A stretch of DNA of 37,400 nucleotides. Source: Flavobacteriaceae bacterium (GTDB taxonomy: Bacteria > Bacteroidota > Bacteroidia > Flavobacteriales > Flavobacteriaceae). A program made the position numbers and the translations under genes. The first letter of the stretch is position 1. The number at the start of each line of letters is the position of its first letter. Location: contig JAURCF010000010.1 in NCBI GenBank assembly GCA_030828565.1, positions 1-37,400 on the forward strand, in the 5' to 3' direction. Of the stretch, positions 3,273 to 17,505 are shown in pieces. The notes under the pieces were generated by a model that saw nothing but the letters and a program-made list of their open reading frames with translations, was not told the DNA's origin and searched no databases.

Positions 3273-4286
3273 TCAGACTAAATGCTGTTTGATTGTAGCA
3301 ATCAAGGGCTCAGAATCATTGAGAAAGACCGTTTCTATTGGTAATTCAAAAAGTGATTTGTCAGAAAGCAAAGATCGCAATCGAACAGCATCTTTTTCAG
3401 TAGTCAAAATGGGTTTTTGACCCGCCGTTTGAAGGATTCGATGGATATCTCCTTTGGAAAAATTATGGTGATCTGAAAACAAAAGGTGTGTGTATTTTGC
3501 ATCCAAAGAATCCAAATATTGGATCAAATTGGAAGGATTGGCAATTCCGGTTACAAGCACAAATTCCTTTTTGATAAAATCACTCACTAAGGGTGTATTT
3601 TCACCCTTTAATCGAGAAGCATACCCTATGGTGGCAAAAAAACAAGATTGATGCGATTGAAGCCCAAGTTGATTTTTAAAATTTGATTGCATTTCGCTAG
3701 ACAACTCTATGGGACACTTAGTAACTACAATCAAGTCAGCTCGCTGAGCTCCAGACTGCGATTCCCGAAGATTTCCAGAAGGCAGAACACAATCTTTGTG
3801 ATACGGATTGTCGTAAGTAGTTAACAAGATTTTTAGATCCGAAGCTACCCATCGGTGCTGAAAAGCATCGTCTAACAATATCACTTGCACATGGGGACGT
3901 TGTAGCAACAATTGTTCAATACCATTGCGCCTATTGGCATCCACTGCCACAGTTATGTTTGTATATTTTTGTGCCAATTGAAAGGGTTCATCACCCATTT
4001 GAGCCGCCGATGATTGGGAGTCAAACAACTGGAATCCCGAAGAATTGCGTTTGTATCCTCGACTCAAAACAGCAACCTCCATAGTGGTTGAAAGGTGTCG
4101 AATCAACCATTCAATCATGGGTGTTTTTCCTGTGCCTCCCACACTCAAATTCCCAACGCAAATAATGGGAATACCAAACGACTTACTTTCAAAAACCCCC
4201 CAATCAAAAGCTTTGTTTCGAAGGGAAGTAGCCCCTTGGTAGATCCAAGAAAAGGGAAACAATAATTTTCTCCATGAATAATTCAC
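3273..4286 (-). CDS. lpxK: Tetraacyldisaccharide 4'-kinase (lipid A synthesis)
   Basis: Inner-membrane kinase that phosphorylates the 4' position of the tetraacyldisaccharide 1-phosphate to form lipid IVA. The N-terminus has a membrane-associating stretch ([11 protein letters not shown]), followed by the family's P-loop in [11 protein letters not shown] at about residues 46-56. Further LpxK blocks are [14 protein letters not shown] and [11 protein letters not shown] chose the GTG at 4286 because it gives an N-terminus ([12 protein letters not shown]) like that of other flavobacterial LpxK proteins, with 337 residues. The frame also stays open to a TTG at 4313, which would add nine residues. 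Its presence confirms an outer membrane with lipid A. Confidence 0.93.
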
Positions 4287-6554: not shown

Positions 6555-7766
6555 TCAATCGATTTCAGCAACAACAAAAGTACTTCCCCCAACAAATACA
6601 AGTTCGTTAGGCAGAGCATTATGGAGTGCAGAGCGATACGCTTCAATTACGCTTTCAAAAGTTTGACTAGAAAGATCTAATTCCTGCGCTTTTCTTTCCA
6701 AAACAGATACAGGCATTGCGCGAGAAATAGCCGGAGCACAAAAATAATACTGAGCGTCTTTAGGTAAGATCGAAAAAATACGATCGAGGCTTTTATCCGA
6801 AACACTTCCAAAAACAATGTGAAGCCTCTCAAACGATTCTTCCCTGATTTGACTCATTACCAAAGACAAACCCTCATAGTTATGAGCAACATCGCAAATT
6901 ATTTTGGGGGAATGACCCAAAACGGACCACCTTCCTTTCAATCCTGTTTGAGAAACCACTTGCTGTAGCCCCAACTTTATTTGAGATTCCGAAACAGTAA
7001 ACTGCCTTAACAAACGAACCGCCTGGATTGCTGATTGCCTATTTTTCAATTGATAATTTCCTTGTAAATCGGTTGGGAAATTCTCGGAAACACTTTCAGA
7101 AGCAAGAAAAAGAGGGGCATTGTTTTGATGAGCAATTTTTTGAAATACTGGGAATGTTTCCTTTTGAAACTCACCGATAACAACTGGCGTGTTTTTTTTA
7201 ATAATCCCAGCTTTTTCTTGAGCGATTTCCTCCAATGAATTTCCTAAAAACTGCGTATGATCCAGTCCAATATTAGTGATAACACTAACTTCAGGCGTTA
7301 GGACATTGGTAGCATCGAGTCGACCTCCTAAACCGACTTCAATAACGGCTATATCAACCGATTGGTTGGAAAAAAAATCGAATGCCATACCCACAGTCAT
7401 TTCAAAAAATGACATTTGATGGGTCTCAAAATAGGGTTGATGTTGCGCAACAAAATCGATTACATTTTGCTTTGAAATTTTTTTCCCATCCAACCGAATG
7501 CGCTCTCTAAAGTCCTGAAGATGGGGCGAAGTATAAAGCCCCACTTTATAACCTGCTGTTTGCAAAATCGATGCTATCATATGGCATGTAGAACCTTTTC
7601 CGTTGGTTCCTGCTACATGAATGGAAGGGAATTTTTTATGCGGTTGGCTCAAGTATTCACACAAATCGTGAATACGATCCAAATTTGGCTTATAACTAGC
7701 AGCACCTTGCCGCTGATACATCGGCAACTTCTCAAACAACCAATCAATTGTTTGAGCATAGTTCAT
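6555..7766 (-). CDS. folC: Folylpolyglutamate synthase / dihydrofolate synthase
   Basis: Mur-ligase-like ATP enzyme of 403 residues that adds glutamate to dihydropteroate and/or folates. The N-terminal ATP-binding loop reads HVAGTNGKGST, followed by the FolC signatures SPHLQDFRERI and LGGRLDATNVL. TNIGLDHTQFLG contains the metal-binding region, and ICDVAHN opens the C-terminal glutamate-binding domain. Whether it performs both reactions cannot be read from the sequence. Its ATG overlaps the stop codon of nhaD by one base (TAATG), so it is the second gene of a two-gene unit transcribed from the nhaD promoter. Confidence 0.95.
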   Translation of the reverse strand: MNYAQTIDWLFEKLPMYQRQGAASYKPNLDRIHDLCEYLSQPHKKFPSIHVAGTNGKGSTCHMIASILQTAGYKVGLYTSPHLQDFRERIRLDGKKISKQNVIDFVAQHQPYFETHQMSFFEMTVGMAFDFFSNQSVDIAVIEVGLGGRLDATNVLTPEVSVITNIGLDHTQFLGNSLEEIAQEKAGIIKKNTPVVIGEFQKETFPVFQKIAHQNNAPLFLASESVSENFPTDLQGNYQLKNRQSAIQAVRLLRQFTVSESQIKLGLQQVVSQTGLKGRWSVLGHSPKIICDVAHNYEGLSLVMSQIREESFERLHIVFGSVSDKSLDRIFSILPKDAQYYFCAPAISRAMPVSVLERKAQELDLSSQTFESVIEAYRSALHNALPNELVFVGGSTFVVAEID

Positions 7767-9097
7767 TATCCTAGAATGAAAAATCTAAGAGCGATAAAAA
7801 CAAAAGATCCTGCCAAAAAACCGACAAAAGCTAGCCAGCTGATTTTTTTGAGATACCAAACAAAATCGATTTTCTCCATGCCCATCGCAACGACTCCTGC
7901 AGCAGATCCAATAATAAGCATACTCCCCCCTGTACCTGCAGAAAAGGCAATGAAATGCCAAAGCGGATGATCAATAGGTTCCGCAAACATTCCCATACTG
8001 GCAGCAACCAATGGAACATTGTCAATAATTGCCGATCCAATTCCTAACAGAAAAACTACAATATCTGTATTGGGTATGGCAGTGTTCATGTCTTGAGCAA
8101 ATTCAAACAAAATTCCTAACGATTCCAAAGCTCCTACGGCCATTAAAATTCCCAAGAAAAATAAAATGCTAGGAAGCTCGATTTTAGAGAGTGATGTATG
8201 AACAGGGCTATGGTGTGCCGCCGCGTCGCTTTCAGAATCAATTTCAGTCAAACTAAATTTGGTTCGACTGTATATTTCCGCAAAAGTAGCTACTACAGCC
8301 AAAGAAAGCATCATTCCTACATAGGGTGGTAAATGGGTGATTGTTTTAAAAATGGGTACAAACAAGATGGATCCCAATCCAAGATAAAGCATAGTTCCTC
8401 CAAATTTTGAAGTATTTTCAGTACCGTCTTCAGTAATAGCAGGCAGTTCCCCTTTGAAAACTTTCAATCGAGAAGCGAGCACCGTGGGTATCGCCATACA
8501 TACAATGGAAGGAATAAGCACAAACTTAATAAGTTCTACTGTACTCACTTTGTCGCCAATCCAAAGCATTGTAGTAGTAACATCCCCAATGGGAGACCAG
8601 GCGCCTCCCGCATTAGCTGCAATAACAATAAGTCCTGCAAACCACAAACGAGAATCGCGATCTTTTATAATTTTCTGAAGAATGGTAATAAGAACAATAG
8701 TCGCGGTAAGATTATCAATAATTGCAGATAGAATAAACGCTAAAATTGAAAATATCCACAACAATTTTGTTTTTTTCCTTGTATGAATATAATTTTTAAT
8801 TGTTGCGAACCCATTGAAATAATCAATGATTTCAACAATAGTCATTGCACCCAAAAGAAAGACTAAAATTTCTGCAGTTTTTCCAAGATGATGCAATAAA
8901 ATTTCTTCTAAATGAGTCGGCTCGAGCTCTAGAAGCGTGGTGTTTACTTCAAAAACATCCATATGTGTCAATGCAATCATTGCCCACAAAATTGCCATCA
9001 TTGCCAATGCTGGAATAAGTTTGTCTAACTTTAAATTATGTTCTAAGGTAATGGCCAAATAGCCTAAAACAAAAACGATAATGATAAGGGTTTCCAT
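7766..9097 (-). CDS. nhaD: NhaD-type sodium:proton antiporter
   Basis: Inner-membrane transporter of 443 residues in the ion transporter superfamily, with about twelve hydrophobic segments. Conserved-looking blocks include SAIIDNLTATIVL and NAGGAWSPIGDVTTTMLW in the first half, and the inverted-repeat counterparts SAIIDNVPLVAA and GTGGSMLIIGSAAG in the second. NhaD exports Na+ (and Li+) in exchange for protons and is common in marine and halotolerant bacteria, which fits the suspected habitat. It is the first gene of a unit with folC. Members of this superfamily also include arsenite permeases, but the paired ND and GG motifs favour NhaD. Confidence 0.92.
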   Translation of the reverse strand: METLIIIVFVLGYLAITLEHNLKLDKLIPALAMMAILWAMIALTHMDVFEVNTTLLELEPTHLEEILLHHLGKTAEILVFLLGAMTIVEIIDYFNGFATIKNYIHTRKKTKLLWIFSILAFILSAIIDNLTATIVLITILQKIIKDRDSRLWFAGLIVIAANAGGAWSPIGDVTTTMLWIGDKVSTVELIKFVLIPSIVCMAIPTVLASRLKVFKGELPAITEDGTENTSKFGGTMLYLGLGSILFVPIFKTITHLPPYVGMMLSLAVVATFAEIYSRTKFSLTEIDSESDAAAHHSPVHTSLSKIELPSILFFLGILMAVGALESLGILFEFAQDMNTAIPNTDIVVFLLGIGSAIIDNVPLVAASMGMFAEPIDHPLWHFIAFSAGTGGSMLIIGSAAGVVAMGMEKIDFVWYLKKISWLAFVGFLAGSFVFIALRFFILG

Positions 9098-9127: not shown

Positions 9128-9157
9128 CAAATATAATCAGGGAAATAGATTTAACAA
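9128..9157 (-). promoter_or_regulatory. Promoter of nhaD-folC
   Basis: On the minus strand TTG (9157-9155), 19 bases, then TATATTTG (9135-9128). The expected transcript start is about 25 bases before the nhaD ATG. Confidence 0.8.
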
Positions 9158-9228: not shown

Positions 9229-9308
9229 ACAACCCCTCTTTAAAAAAATATTATATAAAGATATGGGTTGTTTGCATAAACATACCCTTTATTTATAGGG
9301 GTTTGTTT
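9229..9308. promoter_or_regulatory. Alternating half-site array in the nhaD-gltB intergenic region
   Basis: Four related half-sites in alternating orientation: ACAACCCC at 9229-9236, GGGTTGTTT at 9265-9273, AAACATACCC at 9278-9287 and GGGGTTTGTTT at 9298-9308. The middle two form a palindrome around GCAT with one unpaired base. The outer ones can each pair with their neighbour instead, so in RNA they would give mutually exclusive hairpins. This could be an operator for a dimeric regulator of gltB or nhaD, or an attenuator-like leader if an upstream transcript exists. No regulator is identified. The rest of the 429-base gap is AT-rich, with a 7-bp inverted repeat at 9359-9378 and no convincing gene. 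Confidence 0.45.
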
Positions 9309-9502
9309 TAAAAAACTTATAAATTCATTAGATTTGCCTACTCCAAATTAGATTAACAAGTTTTTGAAATTAAAAACTCATCAAATTATCAATATTAAAG
9401 GGTAATATTAGCAATCTATCAAAAACCACATCTGCAAATTGTAGAGTTTGTATTATGAGTGTTTTTGTTTGCTAACAAATATGAAATCCGCAATTGATAG
9501 TT

Positions 9503-9510
9503 TATTTTTG
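9503..9510 (+). promoter_or_regulatory. Possible -7 element of gltB
   Basis: TATTTTTG matches TAnnTTTG and lies 16 bases before the gltB ATG. No TTG is found at a usual distance upstream, so this promoter may need an activator. Confidence 0.45.
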
Positions 9511-9526
9511 TAAAAATTAAAAAAAG

Positions 9527-12500
9527 ATGCTTCCACCAAAACAAGGCTTATATTCTCCAAATTTCGAACACGATAACTGTGGCGCGGGATTTATTTGTAG
9601 TTTACAAGGAGAAAAAACAAACGATATTATTCATAAAGCTCTTGATATTCTTGTCAAATTAGAGCACAGAGGCGCCGTTAGCGCTGATGGAAAAACAGGA
9701 GATGGTGCTGGAATATTGATTGAAATTCCTCATGATTTTTTAAAACTCAATTGTGATTTTGTTTTGCCTGATCCGCAAGAATATGCAGTAGGAATGGTTT
9801 TTCTCCCCCAGAAATCAAATCAACGCCAATTTTGCATCGATACTTTTGAAAAAGAAATTACGGATCAAGGGCTTTCAATTCTTGGTTGGAGAGAAGTTCC
9901 TGTCGACAAAAACGTAGTCGGAAAAATCGCGGCCCAAACAGAGCCTGTCATTTGTCAAATATTTGTTGGTAAAAATGAATTAGAGCTTACCGAAGCTGAA
10001 TTCAATATCAAACTTTTTATTGCTCGAAAAAAAGCAGAACATGCGGTTTACGGAACCAAATTGTCTCAAAAAACTTATTTTTATTTAACAAGCTTACATA
10101 CAAGAACACTTATCTACAAAGGCTTATTAGTTCCTGAAGATATTCAAAAATATTATCTCGATTTGAACGAACCCAAGCTAGTGACTCGATTGGCATTGGT
10201 TCATCAACGATTTTCCACCAATACCTTCCCAACATGGGATTTAGCACAACCTTTTAGATACATGTGCCATAACGGTGAAATTAATACGTTCAAAGGAAAT
10301 TACAGCCGAATGAAAGCTCGTGAAGAATTGTTAGAGAGCGATTTGTTTGGAGATGATATTAAAAAAATTCTTCCCACAATACTTGAAGGAAAATCAGACT
10401 CTTCCTCAATGGATATGGTGGTTGAGTTGCTCATAGCTACTGGAAGATCACTGCCAGAAGTAATGATGATGATGGTTCCAGAAGCTTGGGAAAAGCACCA
10501 CTCCATGTCAGATGAGAAAAAAGCTTTCTACGAATACAATGCTTGTATTATGGAGCCTTGGGACGGCCCTGCCTCCATTCCGTTTACAGACGGAAAATTT
10601 ATCGGAGCCTTGTTGGATCGAAACGGATTGCGTCCTTCGCGCTATACCGTAACCAAAGATGGCTATGTAGTCATGGCTTCCGAAACAGGAGTCACAGAAA
10701 TCGCTCCTGAAAACGTGATTCAACACGGTCGATTGGAACCAGGAAAGATGTTTTTAGTAAACATGAATGAAGGGCGTATTGTAGAAGACGAGGAAATCAA
10801 GTCGATGGTAACTTCTGAAAAACCCTATAAAAAATGGCTTGACGAAAATTTATTGAAACTTAAAGATGTTGCCTACACAGGGAACAATACTCCCATAGAA
10901 TCTGAACCGTTTGAAAAGAGACTTAAAACCTTTGGATATACCGAAGAGGATATAAAAACCCTTATCAATCCAATGAGTTCTTTGGGAAAAGAGGCTATTG
11001 GATCTATGGGAACCGATACTCCACTTGCTGTTTTATCGAACAAACCACAACTGCTTTACAACTATTTCAAACAGTTATTTGCCCAAGTTACAAACCCTCC
11101 TTTGGATGGAATTCGTGAAGAAATTGTAACCGACACCAGTTTAACGCTCGGTAGCGATATTAACTTGTTTGATTTAATTCCTGATCAGTGTAAAAAATTG
11201 AAAATCCAAAACCCTGTGATTTCCAACGAGGATTTGGATAAGATAAAATTCATTGAACATAAAGATTTCAGCACCGTATCCATAAGCTGTCTGTATCCTA
11301 TCAAAAAAGGGCTTAACGGTCTTGAAAAAGCATTGGATAAAATCGTCAAAGAAGTTAAAATAGCCGTTGAGGATGGCGTCAATATTGTGATTCTCTCTGA
11401 TCGAGGTGTCTCAAAATCCATGGCACCAATTCCTATGGCACTGGCCTGTTCGTATGTTCACCACTCCAGTATCAGCCAAAAAATTCGTTCCAAGTTTGGA
11501 ATTATTATCGAATCTGCTGAGCCTCGTGAACCGCATCATTTTGCCGTTCTTTTCGGATACGGAGCTAGTGCTATTAATCCCTACATGGTTAATGAAATCA
11601 TTACCTATCAAGTAGAAAACAAAAAACTACACAATATTACTGTTGAAAATGCCATTGATAATTTTAATAAAGCCATTGCAAAGGGTATTATTAAGATTAT
11701 GAATAAAATTGGGATTTCCACTTTGCTTTCCTACCGAGGATCTCAAATATTTGAAGCCCTAGGTTTGAATGAAAAATTTATAAATAAATACTTTACCAAT
11801 ACACCCACACGAATTGAAGGAATTGGTCTTTATGAAGTAGAAAAAGAAATTTCAAAACTTCACCACAGTGCCTACAAGTCTTTGGCCGTCGAAGGAACCA
11901 TGGACTTGGAAATTGGGGGTAGCTATCGATGGAGAAGAAGCGGGGAAGCTCACATGTTCAATCCAGCTACTATTTCCAAACTTCAACAAGCTGTTCGGCA
12001 AAACAAATACGAAACGTATGAGGTTTACTCTGATTTGATCAACAAACAGAGTGAGCAATTGATGACTCTAAGAGGCATGTTTGAATTTTCTGACTTTGAT
12101 CCGATTCCTTTGGAGGAAGTAGAACCTTGGACAGAAATCGTAAAACGCTTCAAAACCGGAGCCATGTCTTACGGATCTATTAGCGCCGAAGCCCATGAAA
12201 ATTTGGCCCTAGCGATGAACAAGCTAGGAGGAAAAAGCAACTCTGGAGAGGGAGGCGAAGACGAAGCTCGCTTCATCAAACAACCCAATGGAGATTGGAA
12301 AAACAGTGCTATCAAACAAGTCGCTTCAGGACGCTTTGGTGTTTCCTCACATTATTTGAGCAGCGCTAAAGAAATACAGATTAAAATGGCGCAAGGCGCC
12401 AAGCCAGGCGAAGGAGGACAACTTCCTGGTCCAAAAGTAAACCCGCTCATTGCAAAAGTGCGAAATTCAACGCCTTATGTAGGACTTATTTCTCCACCAC

Positions 12501-14035
12501 CTCATCACGACATCTATTCGATCGAAGATTTGGCGCAATTGATTTACGATTTAAAAAATGCCAATCGCGAAGCACGTATCAATGTGAAGTTGGTTTCTGA
12601 AGTGGGTGTGGGTACAATTGCCGCAGGGGTAGCCAAAGCCAAAGCCGATGTTATCTTAATTTCTGGATTTGACGGTGGTACTGGAGCTTCTCCGCTTACT
12701 TCTCTAAAACACGCTGGTTTGCCATGGGAATTGGGAATTGCGGAAGCACAGCAAACTCTAGTCATGAATGATCTTCGCGGACGTGTGGTCATGGAATGCG
12801 ACGGTCAGCTCAAAACGGGCCGCGATGTAGCAGTAGCCTGTCTATTAGGTGCAGAAGAATTTGGATTTTCAACGGCGCCACTTGTTGCTTCTGGATGCAT
12901 TATGATGCGCGCTTGTCACCTCAACACTTGTCCTGTAGGAATCGCAACCCAAGATCCAGAACTGCGAAAAAACTTCAAAGGGACTCCTGAAAACGTTATC
13001 AACTTTATGCACTTTGTAGCCGAAGAACTTCGACAAATCATGGCACAATTAGGGTTTAAAACGATTGACGAAATGGTAGGGCAAAGTCAAAAATTGAATA
13101 TGAATTCTGCCATAGAGCACTATAAAGCACAAGGCGTGGACTTGTCCAATATTCTATACAAGCCCAATGTAGGCGAAGACATTTCTCTACGAAACAAAAC
13201 CTCTCAAGATCATGAGTTGGACAATGTGTTGGATATGACAATTGTTAAAGAAGCCAAAGCGGCTATCGAAAAACTTGAAAAAACTTCACTTTCGTATTCT
13301 ATCAAAAACACCGATCGTGCTGTAGGAGCTATTTTGAGCAACGAAATTTCTAAAATTCACGGTTCTAAAGGATTGCCTGAAGATACGTTGGAGTTGAATT
13401 TTAAGGGTTCTGCAGGACAAAGTTTCGGAGCATTTGCCACACGTGGATTAACAATGAAGGTCGATGGAAATACCAACGATTATTTTGGAAAAGGACTTTC
13501 TGGAGCTACATTGATTGTGAAAACACCCAAAGAGGCCACTTTCAAAGCTGAGGACAACATCATTACTGGAAATGTTTCTTTGTATGGAGCAATTAACGGC
13601 GAAGCCTATATCAATGGAATTGCCGGAGAGCGTTTTTGTGTTCGTAACTCAGGAGCTACAGCGGTTGTTGAAGGTGTGGGTGATCACTGTTGTGAATACA
13701 TGACGGGAGGAGTTGCTGTAATACTCGGAAAAACAGGTCGAAATTTTGCCGCTGGAATGAGTGGTGGAATTGCCTATCTATACTCAGAAGACGGAACCTT
13801 TGACGATCGAAATTTCAATATGGAAATGATTGGGCTGGAGGATCTTTCTTCCAATGACAAAGAGCAACTCAAACAATTGATTGAAAATCATGTACGCCAT
13901 ACGGAAAGTGAATTGGGAGCTAGAATTTTGTCCGATTGGGATACAAGCATTAAAAACTTTATAAAGATTATGCCAACCGACTACAAACGAGCTTTGGCGC
14001 GTTTGGAAGCAGAAAAACTGGCTGAAACAAAATAA
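9527..14035 (+). CDS. gltB: Glutamate synthase large subunit
   Basis: Large subunit of GOGAT, which makes glutamate from glutamine and 2-oxoglutarate with electrons from the small subunit. Its 1502 residues are the usual length. The N-terminal class II amidotransferase domain begins after a short propeptide, with nucleophile C18 in DNCGAGF. The central and FMN-binding synthase domains follow. The 3Fe-4S cluster ligands are C1124, C1130 and C1135 (spacing x5, x4) in a [12 protein letters not shown] segment. Blocks such as [11 protein letters not shown] and [10 protein letters not shown] are typical of the synthase channel. The C-terminal GXGXG beta-helix domain contains repeated Gly-rich turns. 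gltD starts four bases downstream. Together with glutamine synthetase (not in the window) it assimilates ammonia. Confidence 0.98.
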
Positions 14036-14039
14036 AATC

Positions 14040-15497
14040 ATGGGAAAATTAAGAGGATTTTTAGAATACAATCGAGAAGACGAAAGCAATCTTCCCGTAG
14101 AAGAACGTGTTCAGAATTATAAAGAATTTACGGTTGCTCCCTCGGAAGAAAAACTCAAAGAGCAAGGCGGTCGTTGCATGGATTGTGGCGTTCCTTTTTG
14201 TCACAGTGGGTGCCCGTTAGGAAACTTGATTCCTGACTTTAACGATGCTGTTTACAACAACGAATGGCAGAAAGCCCTTCGAATTTTACATTCCACAAAC
14301 AATTTTCCTGAATTTACGGGACGTTTGTGTCCAGCTCCTTGTGAAGCGGCTTGTGTACTGGGGATTATCAATCCACCCGTTTCCATTGAGTTGATTGAAA
14401 AATACATTGTAGAGCGTGGCTTTAGCGAAGGATGGATAAAACCCTCTCCTCCAACCTCTCGAACAGGCAAAAAGGTAGCTGTTGTAGGTTCTGGACCCGC
14501 CGGTTTGGCAGCCGCCCAACAGCTCAATCGAGCAGGACACACCGTTACCTTGTTTGAAAGAGATGAAAAGGTTGGCGGGTTGTTACGTTATGGAATTCCT
14601 GATTTTAAAATGGAAAAAAATGTAATCGATCGTCGTGTGAAAATTTTGGTTAAAGAAGGCATTATTATCAAAACAGGCATTGAAGTGGGCAAGAATTATC
14701 CCGCAGAAAAACTCAATGAATTTGATGCTGTACTACTTTCTGGAGGTGCAACGGTCAGAAGACCGCTTCCCATTCCAGGATCCGACCTTAAAGGAGTTGT
14801 TCAGGCGATGGATTTCTTGAAATTACAAAATCAAGTGGTGGATAAAGCAGCCAAAACAACTGCAGATTTGAATGCTAATGGAAAAGATGTGATTGTTATT
14901 GGAGGAGGTGATACAGGATCTGACTGTATAGGAACTTCCAATCGTCATGGGGCTAATTCGGTAACCAATTTTGAAATTATGCCGATGCCTTCCAAAGACC
15001 GTACTGAAGAGCACCCTTGGCCTTTTTGGCCCTTCAAACTCAAAACCAGTTCTTCGCATGAAGAAGGGATTCATAGAGAGTGGAGTATTTTAACAAAAGA
15101 ATTTATTGGGGACAAAGACGGAAACGTTATTGGATTGAAAACCGTGGAAGTTGAATGGGTCAAAACTCCCGGACAACGTCCCGAGCTTAAAGAAAAACCC
15201 GGTTCTGAAAAACAATGGCCTTGTGATATGGCGTTGTTGGCCTTAGGATTTTTAGGTCCAGAAAACACACTGGTTGATCAACTGGGAATCGAAACTGACG
15301 AGCGTACCAATGTCAAAGCGAACGGATACCAAACCAATGTTCCAAACATTTTTGCTGCGGGTGATATTCGAAGAGGTCAATCTTTGATTGTCTGGGCAAT
15401 TTCAGAAGGACGCGAAGCCGCTCATCAAATCGATACGTTTTTAATGGGAAGTTCAACGCTTCCAACCAAAGAAAAGGGAGATTTACCCTCGGTTTAG
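14040..15497 (+). CDS. gltD: Glutamate synthase small subunit
   Basis: FAD-dependent NAD(P)H oxidoreductase of 485 residues that feeds electrons to GltB. The N-terminal part has two cysteine groups for 4Fe-4S clusters (CMDCGVPFCHSGC near residue 44 and CPAPCEAAC near residue 100). A first dinucleotide-binding motif for FAD follows (VAVVGSGPAGLAAAQ), then a second for NADPH (VIVIGGGDTGSDC). The C-terminal motif NIFAAGDIRRGQSLIVWAI is the family's flavin-binding end. It is translated right after gltB, which indicates a single operon. The stop is seven bases from the convergent porin gene, and no hairpin is visible between them. Confidence 0.97.
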   Translation: MGKLRGFLEYNREDESNLPVEERVQNYKEFTVAPSEEKLKEQGGRCMDCGVPFCHSGCPLGNLIPDFNDAVYNNEWQKALRILHSTNNFPEFTGRLCPAPCEAACVLGIINPPVSIELIEKYIVERGFSEGWIKPSPPTSRTGKKVAVVGSGPAGLAAAQQLNRAGHTVTLFERDEKVGGLLRYGIPDFKMEKNVIDRRVKILVKEGIIIKTGIEVGKNYPAEKLNEFDAVLLSGGATVRRPLPIPGSDLKGVVQAMDFLKLQNQVVDKAAKTTADLNANGKDVIVIGGGDTGSDCIGTSNRHGANSVTNFEIMPMPSKDRTEEHPWPFWPFKLKTSSSHEEGIHREWSILTKEFIGDKDGNVIGLKTVEVEWVKTPGQRPELKEKPGSEKQWPCDMALLALGFLGPENTLVDQLGIETDERTNVKANGYQTNVPNIFAAGDIRRGQSLIVWAISEGREAAHQIDTFLMGSSTLPTKEKGDLPSV

Positions 15498-15504
15498 CTC
15501 ATTT

Positions 15505-17505
15505 TTACATAAAGAAATTCCACACCAGCCCAAAGCGAATGATGTAATCGCGGTAAGGATATCCGGGAGCACTGTAAAAAGTATTTCCTGTGAATCCAGA
15601 ATTCATATGTTCCGCTTTAATGTACAATCGTGTTTGTCGAACTTTGGCATTTACAAACAAATCAATCAAAGGGAATCCTCCGTATTGGGTGTCGCTTTGT
15701 GAATAAAATTCTCCGATTACCGGATGGTATCCGTTCATATAGTATTTGGTAAAATAGTTGAACGTAACCCCTGTTTGCAAAAACATTCTTCCTTCAAACA
15801 ATGTGTCTGAATAATAGAAGGTGTTGCGTGTTACTATTTCAGGAACGTTCAAAATTGCGGCGTCTTGTGTTACATTCTGATACATCACCGTATTGTCAAG
15901 TGCAAATCTCCAAAAACGAAACTCTTGGTTCCAAGTGAGTTTTAAGTGCTGAATGGAAGCATCCGCTTGTGTTGGACTTACCAACAAGGATGGAACGGAA
16001 GTATCGGCTAAAGGTGTTTGTTTGAAATACGAATGGTTTTCGATATTGGATACGGAACCTGATAATTTTCCGACATACGGAACATTAGCTGATGCATGCA
16101 ATTGGGTAGTTCGAACCATTTTTGGGTCGAGTTGCCAATCAAAAGACGAATAATCGCTTTGGTAACGTTCAAATGAAAATCCAGGGTGCTGAACGGAACG
16201 ATTCATTCCTGCATTCAGAATTATTTTTTGAAAAATTGGCAGTTGAGCTTCGACCGACAGCCGATCGCCGCCACGGATTCCTCCCAAACTTTTGGAAAAA
16301 GATGCGTTCAAGTCAATGTTGGCTATTTTGTTTTGCCAAGAGCCGCTCAAAGCAGATTCATTTGCCTCAATACGCTTATCGAATTGGTTTGCGGTAACTA
16401 ACGTATCTACAATATTATACTTGTAATTGTATTGCGTCCATTTTGCTTCCAATTGCCCCAACACATCCGAATCGAAACGTCCGTAAAAGCTATTTTCGGT
16501 TGTTCGCAATTCTGTACGGTCAGAAACAGTCGTTGCGTCTGTAACCAAATCGCCATAGGGAGTATACGCCCCAGACTGAAAGAAAAAATTTGTGTTGGAT
16601 TGGTATTCAAATCGATGTCCTACAGAAAGTATAGAACGCGAGAGGCTGTCTTTTTTTGGAGTCAATTCATAGAAATGATCCAAAAAATAGCGTTTGGAAT
16701 TGAAACCATTGACCGCATCTTCGTATTCGACGGATAGTTTTGCGCGCTCATCAAACTCTTTGTCTTCAGACTCAAAATCGGTTACAGATTCGGCAGTAAG
16801 ACCTCCGTTCTCTTCTTGATCGCTGTGTTGATTTTCGTAATGAAATCGCAGAAAATAGCGTTCGTTGGGAGATCGATAGTTGGATGTAAAACGAAACTGC
16901 CCTCCGCTGGTAAGAATGTGTTGGTATTTACCCAAAGATCGTATTCCTTTAAAAGAAATTGAAAAATTAAACCGCGGTGAGGTATTGGTCGTAAATAGAA
17001 TGTCTGTCGTTTGTCCTTGTTCCATAACCGTTTTGTAAAACATTTCCGTAAAGGGAGTGGGAACTTCATAATACGTAACCTCGTCAGCAGCAGTATATGG
17101 AAACTGTTTGGCAGCAAAGCCCATTGTTGGAAAAATGGAGTTCGAAACCTTTGCTAACGACAATCGATTGTAGGTTTGTCCTGTATTAGAAAAGCGCAAC
17201 AATTCAAACGTATCTTTTCGCAAATAGTTAAAGCGATATTCTTTTCGGATGGTTAAGGAAGTATCTACAAAGGTAGTGTCCCGATCTACAGAAATGATTT
17301 TGTAATCTGTAACCGGCGGCTTTTTATCTTTAGAAATGACCGAATTTGGTGATGAAGTAAATCCCGGAACGGAGTCATTTTGTAGGGTTCTCGTATTCAA
17401 TTCTGGGTTCCTAGAGGGTTTCTTTTCAACAAAAGGGCGCCCTTGAGCCATTACAAAAGACGAGGTCAAAAACAGCGTTAAAAATAAGAAGTATTGGGTA
17501 CGCAT
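15505..17505 (-). CDS. Outer-membrane porin-like beta-barrel protein (Porin_10 type)
   Basis: A 666-residue protein with a signal peptide (MRTQYFLFLTLFLTSSFVMA, cut near residue 20) and no other membrane helix. After a Ser/Pro/Asn-rich linker, most of the chain consists of alternating short amphipathic strands with aromatic girdles, such as FRFTSNYRSPNERYFLRFHY. It ends in an aromatic residue region (IIRFGLVWNFFM), as outer-membrane barrels do. The pattern and length match the putative porins (Pfam Porin_10) widespread in Bacteroidota. The substrate is unknown. It is divergent from rnhB, with 94 bases between the frames. Confidence 0.8.
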   Translation of the reverse strand: MRTQYFLFLTLFLTSSFVMAQGRPFVEKKPSRNPELNTRTLQNDSVPGFTSSPNSVISKDKKPPVTDYKIISVDRDTTFVDTSLTIRKEYRFNYLRKDTFELLRFSNTGQTYNRLSLAKVSNSIFPTMGFAAKQFPYTAADEVTYYEVPTPFTEMFYKTVMEQGQTTDILFTTNTSPRFNFSISFKGIRSLGKYQHILTSGGQFRFTSNYRSPNERYFLRFHYENQHSDQEENGGLTAESVTDFESEDKEFDERAKLSVEYEDAVNGFNSKRYFLDHFYELTPKKDSLSRSILSVGHRFEYQSNTNFFFQSGAYTPYGDLVTDATTVSDRTELRTTENSFYGRFDSDVLGQLEAKWTQYNYKYNIVDTLVTANQFDKRIEANESALSGSWQNKIANIDLNASFSKSLGGIRGGDRLSVEAQLPIFQKIILNAGMNRSVQHPGFSFERYQSDYSSFDWQLDPKMVRTTQLHASANVPYVGKLSGSVSNIENHSYFKQTPLADTSVPSLLVSPTQADASIQHLKLTWNQEFRFWRFALDNTVMYQNVTQDAAILNVPEIVTRNTFYYSDTLFEGRMFLQTGVTFNYFTKYYMNGYHPVIGEFYSQSDTQYGGFPLIDLFVNAKVRQTRLYIKAEHMNSGFTGNTFYSAPGYPYRDYIIRFGLVWNFFM

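Follow-up and report, generated by a model that had tools for sequence, protein, structure and literature searches.

A recurrent CCC-N11-GGG palindrome pair upstream of gltB and other ammonium-assimilation genes: a predicted tandem operator in Flavobacteriaceae

Flavobacteriaceae are abundant marine bacteria that feed on polysaccharides rich in carbon and poor in nitrogen. No description of a nitrogen regulator or nitrogen operator of this family was found in the literature that we searched, most subscription journals lying outside its reach. The known nitrogen regulators NtrC, GlnR/TnrA, NtcA, AmtR and NrpR have targets that overlap with those described below (amtB-PII, glutamine synthetase and glutamate synthase), and to our knowledge none of them is associated with CCC-N11-GGG in 53-bp pairs. 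The site sequence of E. coli Lrp also differs from CCC-N11-GGG. At CRP promoters, tandem sites lie near -41.5 and -93.5, and the half-sites form a dyad of 16 bp with an even centre. The present element is like these promoters in that two dimer sites stand five turns apart upstream of a primary-sigma promoter, and unlike them in its half-site, its odd centre and its unit centres, which are estimated here at -38 and -91.

The nearest parallel known to us is the gltBDF operon of E. coli, where, according to the part of the source used here (PMC1784095), Lrp activates from sites at -152, -215 and -246 and helical phasing matters, since an insertion of 5 bp hurts and one of 10 bp does not. In both cases several sites are located far upstream of gltB; however, the spacing differs, and in the present case the activation, the protein and the ligand are predicted at most. 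In the archaeon Sulfolobus acidocaldarius, the glutamine-responsive Sa-Lrp binds the control regions of gltB, gdhA and glnA, as stated in the consulted section of PMC3584215. That is to say, a nitrogen-assimilation regulon is read there by an Lrp-type protein, of which the flavobacterial counterpart is a candidate only; Sa-Lrp differs in being archaeal and in its AT-rich sites.

The window, that is, the whole stretch of DNA analysed here (37.4 kb), is contig 60 of a genome assembly of 1.55 Mb that is 92% complete (G000), and the sister species (G001) is the sole other genome of the window's genus that was compared. The element at 9229-9308 lies between the divergent genes nhaD and gltB, and sequence comparison makes it very probable that this is the copy, at gltBD, of a tandem operator serving a predicted nitrogen-assimilation regulator of the Flavobacteriaceae. 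The features of this region are as follows:

7766-9097, minus strand: nhaD, Na+/H+ antiporter of the NhaD family.
9128-9135, minus strand: TATATTTG, possible -7 box of an nhaD promoter, kept in the sister species.
9233-9249, plus strand: site 1, a half-site (C-run 9233-9236) whose GGG partner is absent from 9247-9249, where it would be expected; its centre (about 9241) is 52 bp away from that of site 2, and the sister species has a C-run at the same spacing.
9265-9273, plus strand: GGGTTGTTT, the second half-site of the preliminary description, outside the conserved operator, absent in the sister species and without a counterpart in the 48-element alignment.
9285-9301, strandless: site 2, the full palindromic core CCC-TTTATTTATAG-GGG with its centre at 9293, with flanks ACCCTTTATTTATAGGGGT (9284-9302); CCC-N11-GGG is kept in relatives.
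9329-9336, plus strand: TAGATTTG, possible -7 box of an upstream promoter towards gltB, 27 nt past the site-2 core; TAGCTTTG in the sister species.
9400-9402, plus strand: GGG close to one more position of the grid (about -134 relative to the gltB start), a tentative third site; GGGG in the sister species.
9503-9510, plus strand: TATTTTTG, gltB-proximal -7 box, 24 nt ahead of the start codon.
9527-14035, plus strand: gltB, large subunit of glutamate synthase.
14040-15497, plus strand: gltD, small subunit of glutamate synthase.

Past gltD, an ORF of 666 aa on the minus strand (15505-17505) gave no NCBIfam match at 0.001. The four alternating half-sites upstream of gltB and nhaD that the preliminary description had reported are all present, namely ACAACCCC at 9229-9236, GGGTTGTTT at 9265-9273, AAACATACCC at 9278-9287 and GGGGTTTGTTT at 9298-9308. 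What is not supported is their pairing into neighbouring hairpins; the half-sites group instead into CCC-N11-GGG units 52-53 bp apart. When conservation upstream of gltB was checked as had been proposed, the C-runs and their spacing were found to be kept in the sister species, whereas GGGTTGTTT was not. With a weight matrix built from the pairs of other species (79 of the 119 loci described below, 316 site strands), site 2 (9282-9304) scores 25.1 bits, the best value in the 37.4-kb window; the runner-up reaches 7.6 bits when the shifted registers of site 2 are set aside, and 25.1 bits was reached in none of 30 Markov-random windows, the largest value being 22.8. Site 1 (9233-9236) fails the same matrix, with -5.9 bits in its best register, and this putative site is counted solely through its spacing and the homologous arrays. 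In the window, no second full unit lies 53 bp away and a C-run half-site stands alone at 52 bp; the strict paired pattern gives no match in the window's genome. Half-site arrays at gltB are also found in L002, L004 and L013. The window copy looks like a worn one, in which site 2 is intact and site 1 reduced to its C-run.

Among 30 loci compared, the recurrent unit upstream of gltB consists of CCC, eleven mostly A/T bases and GGG; it is often extended to TACCCC(C)TAAAAAATA(G)GGGGTA, and many loci carry two copies about 53 bp apart. The paired pattern, defined as ACCC-N11-GGG, a gap of 33-39 nt and CCC-N11-GGG with AT-rich spacers, is present in 60 of 299 Flavobacteriaceae genomes and absent in its strict form from the other 239, while the reversed-pattern control matches 1 of 299. 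The gap between the units is 36 nt (53 bp from centre to centre) in 46 of the 50 loci used for the spacing count, 37 nt in three and 35 nt in one. Since a distance of 52-54 bp corresponds to five helical turns, the units lie on the same face of the helix. In the 48 elements taken for the logo and the alignment (L047-L076 and L125-L144), a conserved T-tract lies about midway between the palindrome centres (element positions 31-34) and might mark a bend or a third contact. In a phylum-wide sample of 198 genomes the pair occurs in four, which are 4 of the 19 Flavobacteriaceae, and in 0 of the 179 outside the family. As for single cases elsewhere, the gut bacterium Bacteroides cellulosilyticus carries a full 53-bp pair before a GSIII gene (L194, about 3488-3557), and a Carboxylicivirga MAG has a pair near the end of the stretch (L242, about 7849), with the right-hand gene beyond it.

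When a collection with one genome per species (84,980 species) was scanned, at least 119 loci with the pair were obtained; their organisms overlap with those of the 299-genome set, and the two counts are not independent. Among the matches listed, 114 of 119 face genes of PII-amtB, porin-amtB, gltBD, GSIII/GlnII or alanine dehydrogenase (78 of the first 80 were assigned). The classes among these 119 are PII (48), gltB/porin divergent (36), porin (14), GSIII (6), gltB (4), GSIII/GlnII divergent (2), ald (2) and amtB (2), with five left without assignment: in L196, L239, L242 and L254 the pair is near an end of the stretch or record and one side is missing, and L217 has a short unnamed ORF. The class of a locus is that of the nearest outward-facing gene within 600 bp, determined by BLAST to 11 reference proteins, which were checked by Pfam and NCBIfam (P-II, Ammonium_transp, BBP2 porin, GSIII_N, glutamine synthetase GlnII and alaDH); the P-II and GlnII references are above the Pfam cut-offs and below those of NCBIfam. 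In wider loci of 18 kb, amtB is present in 17 of 20 and the porin gene in 18 of 20. These comparisons speak strongly for the earlier proposal, a multi-site operator for a nitrogen regulator, as the tandem palindrome marks ammonium-assimilation genes across the family. It was also observed that an OmpL-like BBP2 porin gene (L125 7940-8962 and relatives) is a frequent partner of amtB/PII in Flavobacteriaceae, which suggests a porin for the uptake of ammonium or amino-nitrogen.

A search of the window's genome for further palindromes, which had also been proposed, gave a divided result. The looser form ACCC-N10..13-GGGGT is no commoner than its control (9 + 9 against 16 + 11), whereas the strict single unit MCCC-N(W9)N-GGGK occurs at three places against 0 in the control; the AT-rich N11 form is the informative one. 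The three places are gltB, the divergent intergenic region of GSIII-GlnII and the interior of one ORF. At GSIII-GlnII, a second C-run follows 53 bp on, and the -7 box TAAATTTG begins 15 nt past that core. In the sister species, the strict unit occurs at two places (control 1), inside an ORF and before amtB, where it is 18 nt from TATATTTG and a G-run half-site lies 52-54 bp further upstream; amtB itself has no match in the window's genome assembly (92% complete), which may be a gap. Within the genus, then, units stand at gltB, GSIII-GlnII and amtB, in agreement with a nitrogen operator. The ORF that holds the third strict palindrome of the window's genome is asparaginase-like (L123 2180-3208, identity read from the sequence), hence a nitrogen-related gene, and the palindrome inside it is probably there by chance. 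In a stringent single-unit search of 62 genomes, matches were found in 24 against 3 for the reversed control. Extra single units at nitrogen genes are those at GSIII-GlnII (L109, L111, L112), ald (L114, L117, L118) and gltB (L116), and others are inside or beside other genes (L107, L108, L110, L113, L115, L119-L121); among the extra places read in this search, none belongs to a regulator gene with a unit of its own.

The position of the unit relative to the promoter is fixed in many of these loci. In the majority of PII operons and roughly half of the porin operons, a sigma-A -7 box follows the end of the near unit by 16-18 nt. Among the matches listed, TAnnTTTG is located 15-21 nt past the core in 36 of 48 PII flanks (24 at exactly 17), 24 of 50 porin flanks (21 at 17), 4 of 8 GSIII and 2 of 2 amtB flanks, and in 0 of 2 GlnII, 0 of 2 ald and 0 of 40 gltB-side flanks; an exact TAnnTTTG at this distance is thus lacking in 12 of 48 PII, 26 of 50 porin and 4 of 8 GSIII flanks. 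At the control distances of 35-41 and 55-61 nt the count is 0 for PII, porin, GSIII and amtB, with one gltB-side flank at 35-41. In Flavobacterium psychrophilum the sigma-A -7 box spans -12 to -5, according to the portion of PMC9723704 consulted, which places the unit centres near -38 and -91. As for the -33 TTTG motif, the consulted part of PMC7366714 describes it for Bacteroides fragilis and reports it as not found in Flavobacterium johnsoniae; little could therefore be concluded from its absence. The fixed distance from unit to box at PII operons is like the geometry of an activator. Within the window's genus, two boxes fall in the range of 15-21 nt, one of them 18 nt from the unit at amtB of the sister species, the other 15 nt away at GSIII-GlnII in the window's genome. 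In the window, the distance from site 2 to the nearest -7 box is 27 nt and not 17, so the window does not have the PII/porin geometry.

At gltB a different regularity is seen. The centres of the C/G-runs lie at about -287, -235 and -181 from the gltB start in L004, L005, L009, L010, L013, L014 and L301 (two of the three in L014), at -283, -232, -179 and -134 in the sister species and at -284 and -236 in the window, which falls on the same grid (about -284, -234, -181). The wider locus search gave a match in 189 of 279 genomes, and 28 loci beyond the window's genus were taken, two of them repeats. The grid count comprises 53 of the 58 gltB loci, including loci whose paired sites belong to porin operons; no start was given by rule in L029, L030 and L302, and L292 and L297 repeat L003 and L004. 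In this set, 22 of the 38 C/G-run pairs that are 25-75 bp apart fall at 50-56 bp, against a mean of 2.7 and a maximum of 10 in random sets, none of 5000 having as many as 22. The grid derived from the sister species gives 30 matches in the 51 other loci, with at least two positions in 10 loci, while 70 shifted grids give a mean of 3.9 and a maximum of 15 matches and at most 4 loci with at least two positions. In 28 of the 53 loci, a TAnnTTTG box begins between 45 and 15 nt upstream of gltB. Measured from the window's proximal box (9503-9510), the unit centres are at about -222 and -274; measured from the possible upstream box (9329-9336), they are at -48 and -100, ten bases off the PII geometry. 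Conservation within the genus is also good between the operator and gltB (9337-9526), a stretch that might serve as a leader if the 9329 box is used.

An ion regulator had been named in the preliminary description as another possible user of the element. nhaD is divergent from gltB in 7 of the 53 loci (window, L002, L003, L283, L295, L300 and L305), and the array is visible in four of them (window, L002, L295, L300) and not in L003, L283 and L305. Loci that lack nhaD show the gltB grid too, which makes gltB the likely target, and the ion regulator is not borne out. A GltB search of viral contigs gave no match.

Besides the operator, the same description had offered an attenuator, that is, transcription from an upstream start with two mutually exclusive hairpins that would switch gltB or nhaD. 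The window sequence indeed folds well on both strands: the plus strand of 9229-9308 as RNA forms the two described hairpins at -22.4 kcal/mol (z -3.06, matched by 1 of 200 shuffles), including the inner TCTTTA/TAAAGA stem of the left one, the minus strand gives z -2.90, and a terminator-like match with the tail TTTGTTTT is located at 9284-9302. In the sister species, the C-runs, with 7 and 6 C, exceed those of the window in length and keep their distance of 52 bp. The G arms that would pair with them are gone, however, and the element folds at only -6.3 kcal/mol (z -1.4), which is no good hairpin. Because the spacing and the half-site are kept and the pairing is lost, the operator and hairpin readings can be told apart here. 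Of the homologous gltB arrays at three other loci, two show weak folding (L295, z -1.1; L004, z -1.2) and the third folds largely as the single palindrome (L300, z -1.9), an Rfam search gave no match within the element, the unit falls outside the transcript at PII and porin operons with the -7 box at 16-18 nt, and the window's -7-like boxes place the likely gltB starts downstream of the element. The attenuator was thus rejected as very improbable. Even less credit is given to chance G/C-runs or intrinsic terminators in AT-rich DNA; the result of the looser palindrome search would fit them, and in L005 and L014 an acyl-CoA dehydrogenase-like gene (named from the sequence) ends ahead of the distal palindrome, which is then placed like a terminator, but the AT-rich N11 form exceeds its control in the window's genome, and 114 of the 119 matches listed are at nitrogen genes, counts that tell against chance as an overall account. 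NtrC-type control with sigma-54 promoters would account for the target set, which is like an NtrC regulon, and NtrC sites are typically 17-bp dyads with an odd centre, which counts in its favour. Among the matches listed, however, the sigma-54 core GG-N10-GC is present in 1 of 103 promoter-side flanks and missing in 102, unlike at NtrC promoters, while TAnnTTTG within 60 nt is found in 64 of 103 against 5 of 103 for the control pattern, so that sigma-54 promoters were discarded and this kind of control is highly improbable. One GG-N10-GC does occur in the window's intergenic region, on the minus strand at 9274.

For the predicted nitrogen operator, the following course is proposed: a dimeric regulator would bind each CCC-N11-GGG unit, the bound dimers would pair cooperatively across the five turns, and under nitrogen shortage the regulator would activate these promoters. 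At gltB it would act from a distance (-222 and -274 from the proximal box) by DNA bending or wrapping, as Lrp does at gltBDF of E. coli. That the operator serves activation is held with moderate confidence. A repressor of nitrogen-assimilation genes, which would block RNA polymerase when nitrogen is ample, is possible and rather doubtful: in PII and porin operons the near unit occupies roughly -46 to -30, so that a protein bound to it could keep the polymerase out, and nitrogen repressors (GlnR, AmtR, NrpR) are common elsewhere, but the array of gltB, placed on its conserved grid some 170-290 bp ahead of the start codon, agrees better with activation from afar than with occlusion. As for the protein itself, a member of another family (CRP/FNR, a response regulator or some other palindrome binder), for which the units would be tandem activator sites near -38 and -91, comes only a little short of an even chance. 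The fixed unit-to-box distance and the five-turn spacing resemble CRP promoters, and among the 10 genomes searched for CRP-type genes, the window's genome and the sister species have one each. Against CRP, the core CCC-N11-GGG is 17 bp long with an odd centre and does not match the standard CRP/FNR dyad of 16 bp and even centre; moreover, G162 (86% complete), which has the pair before PII, gave no CRP-type match over the cut-off, and G215 (78% complete) gave no match.

Returning to the Lrp/AsnC family, three paralogues were followed in 62 genomes, namely the 60 with the pair, the window's and the sister species. LrpA is about 5.5 kb from many PII-amtB operons and is present by the identity cut in 53 of 62; there is no match in eight, the window's genome and the sister species included, and a 37% match in one more. 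LrpA was therefore rejected as the regulator, and its absence from nine genomes means that its nearness to PII is probably synteny. LrpB, which is beside ald in some genomes, is present in 58 of 62 and was set aside because three of the four genomes that lack it are at least 99% complete. LrpC has 159 aa with an AsnC-type HTH and a ligand domain (contig 69 in G000), and LrpC-type rows are found in 61 of the 62 genomes by hand count among the matches listed, the identity having been read in seven; the exception is G004 (80% complete), which carries the pair at its PII operon. In 52 genomes, orthologues of at least 70% identity are confined to Flavobacteriaceae and one other family of the order, represented by G037, in which C-runs stand 54 bp apart at gltB; two more families of the order show 55-59% identity, and values elsewhere are under 50%. 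An LrpC-like gene adjoins the gltB-porin cluster in five other loci. On this sequence evidence LrpC may be the regulator, as the first candidate, though one regarded with considerable reserve. Somewhat less probable still is the full scheme, in which one dedicated Lrp/AsnC nitrogen regulator would activate through five-turn CCC-N11-GGG pairs, from next to the promoter at PII-amtB, porin-amtB and the glutamine synthetase genes, and from afar at gltBD, where it would wrap DNA on a 52-bp grid; if true, the same protein would work in two geometries within one regulon. In practice, a short pattern found at ammonium-assimilation genes (114 of 119 among the matches listed) makes nitrogen sensing approachable with one DNA probe, and the strict 53-bp spacing together with the fixed promoter distance makes the mechanism testable by spacing mutants. 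In the window's genome, LrpC adjoins the phosphoenolpyruvate carboxylase gene (ppc, by Pfam). An AsnC-family regulator lies directly upstream of ppc there (L326 1650-3999), and by likeness the same arrangement is seen in the sister species and in G162.
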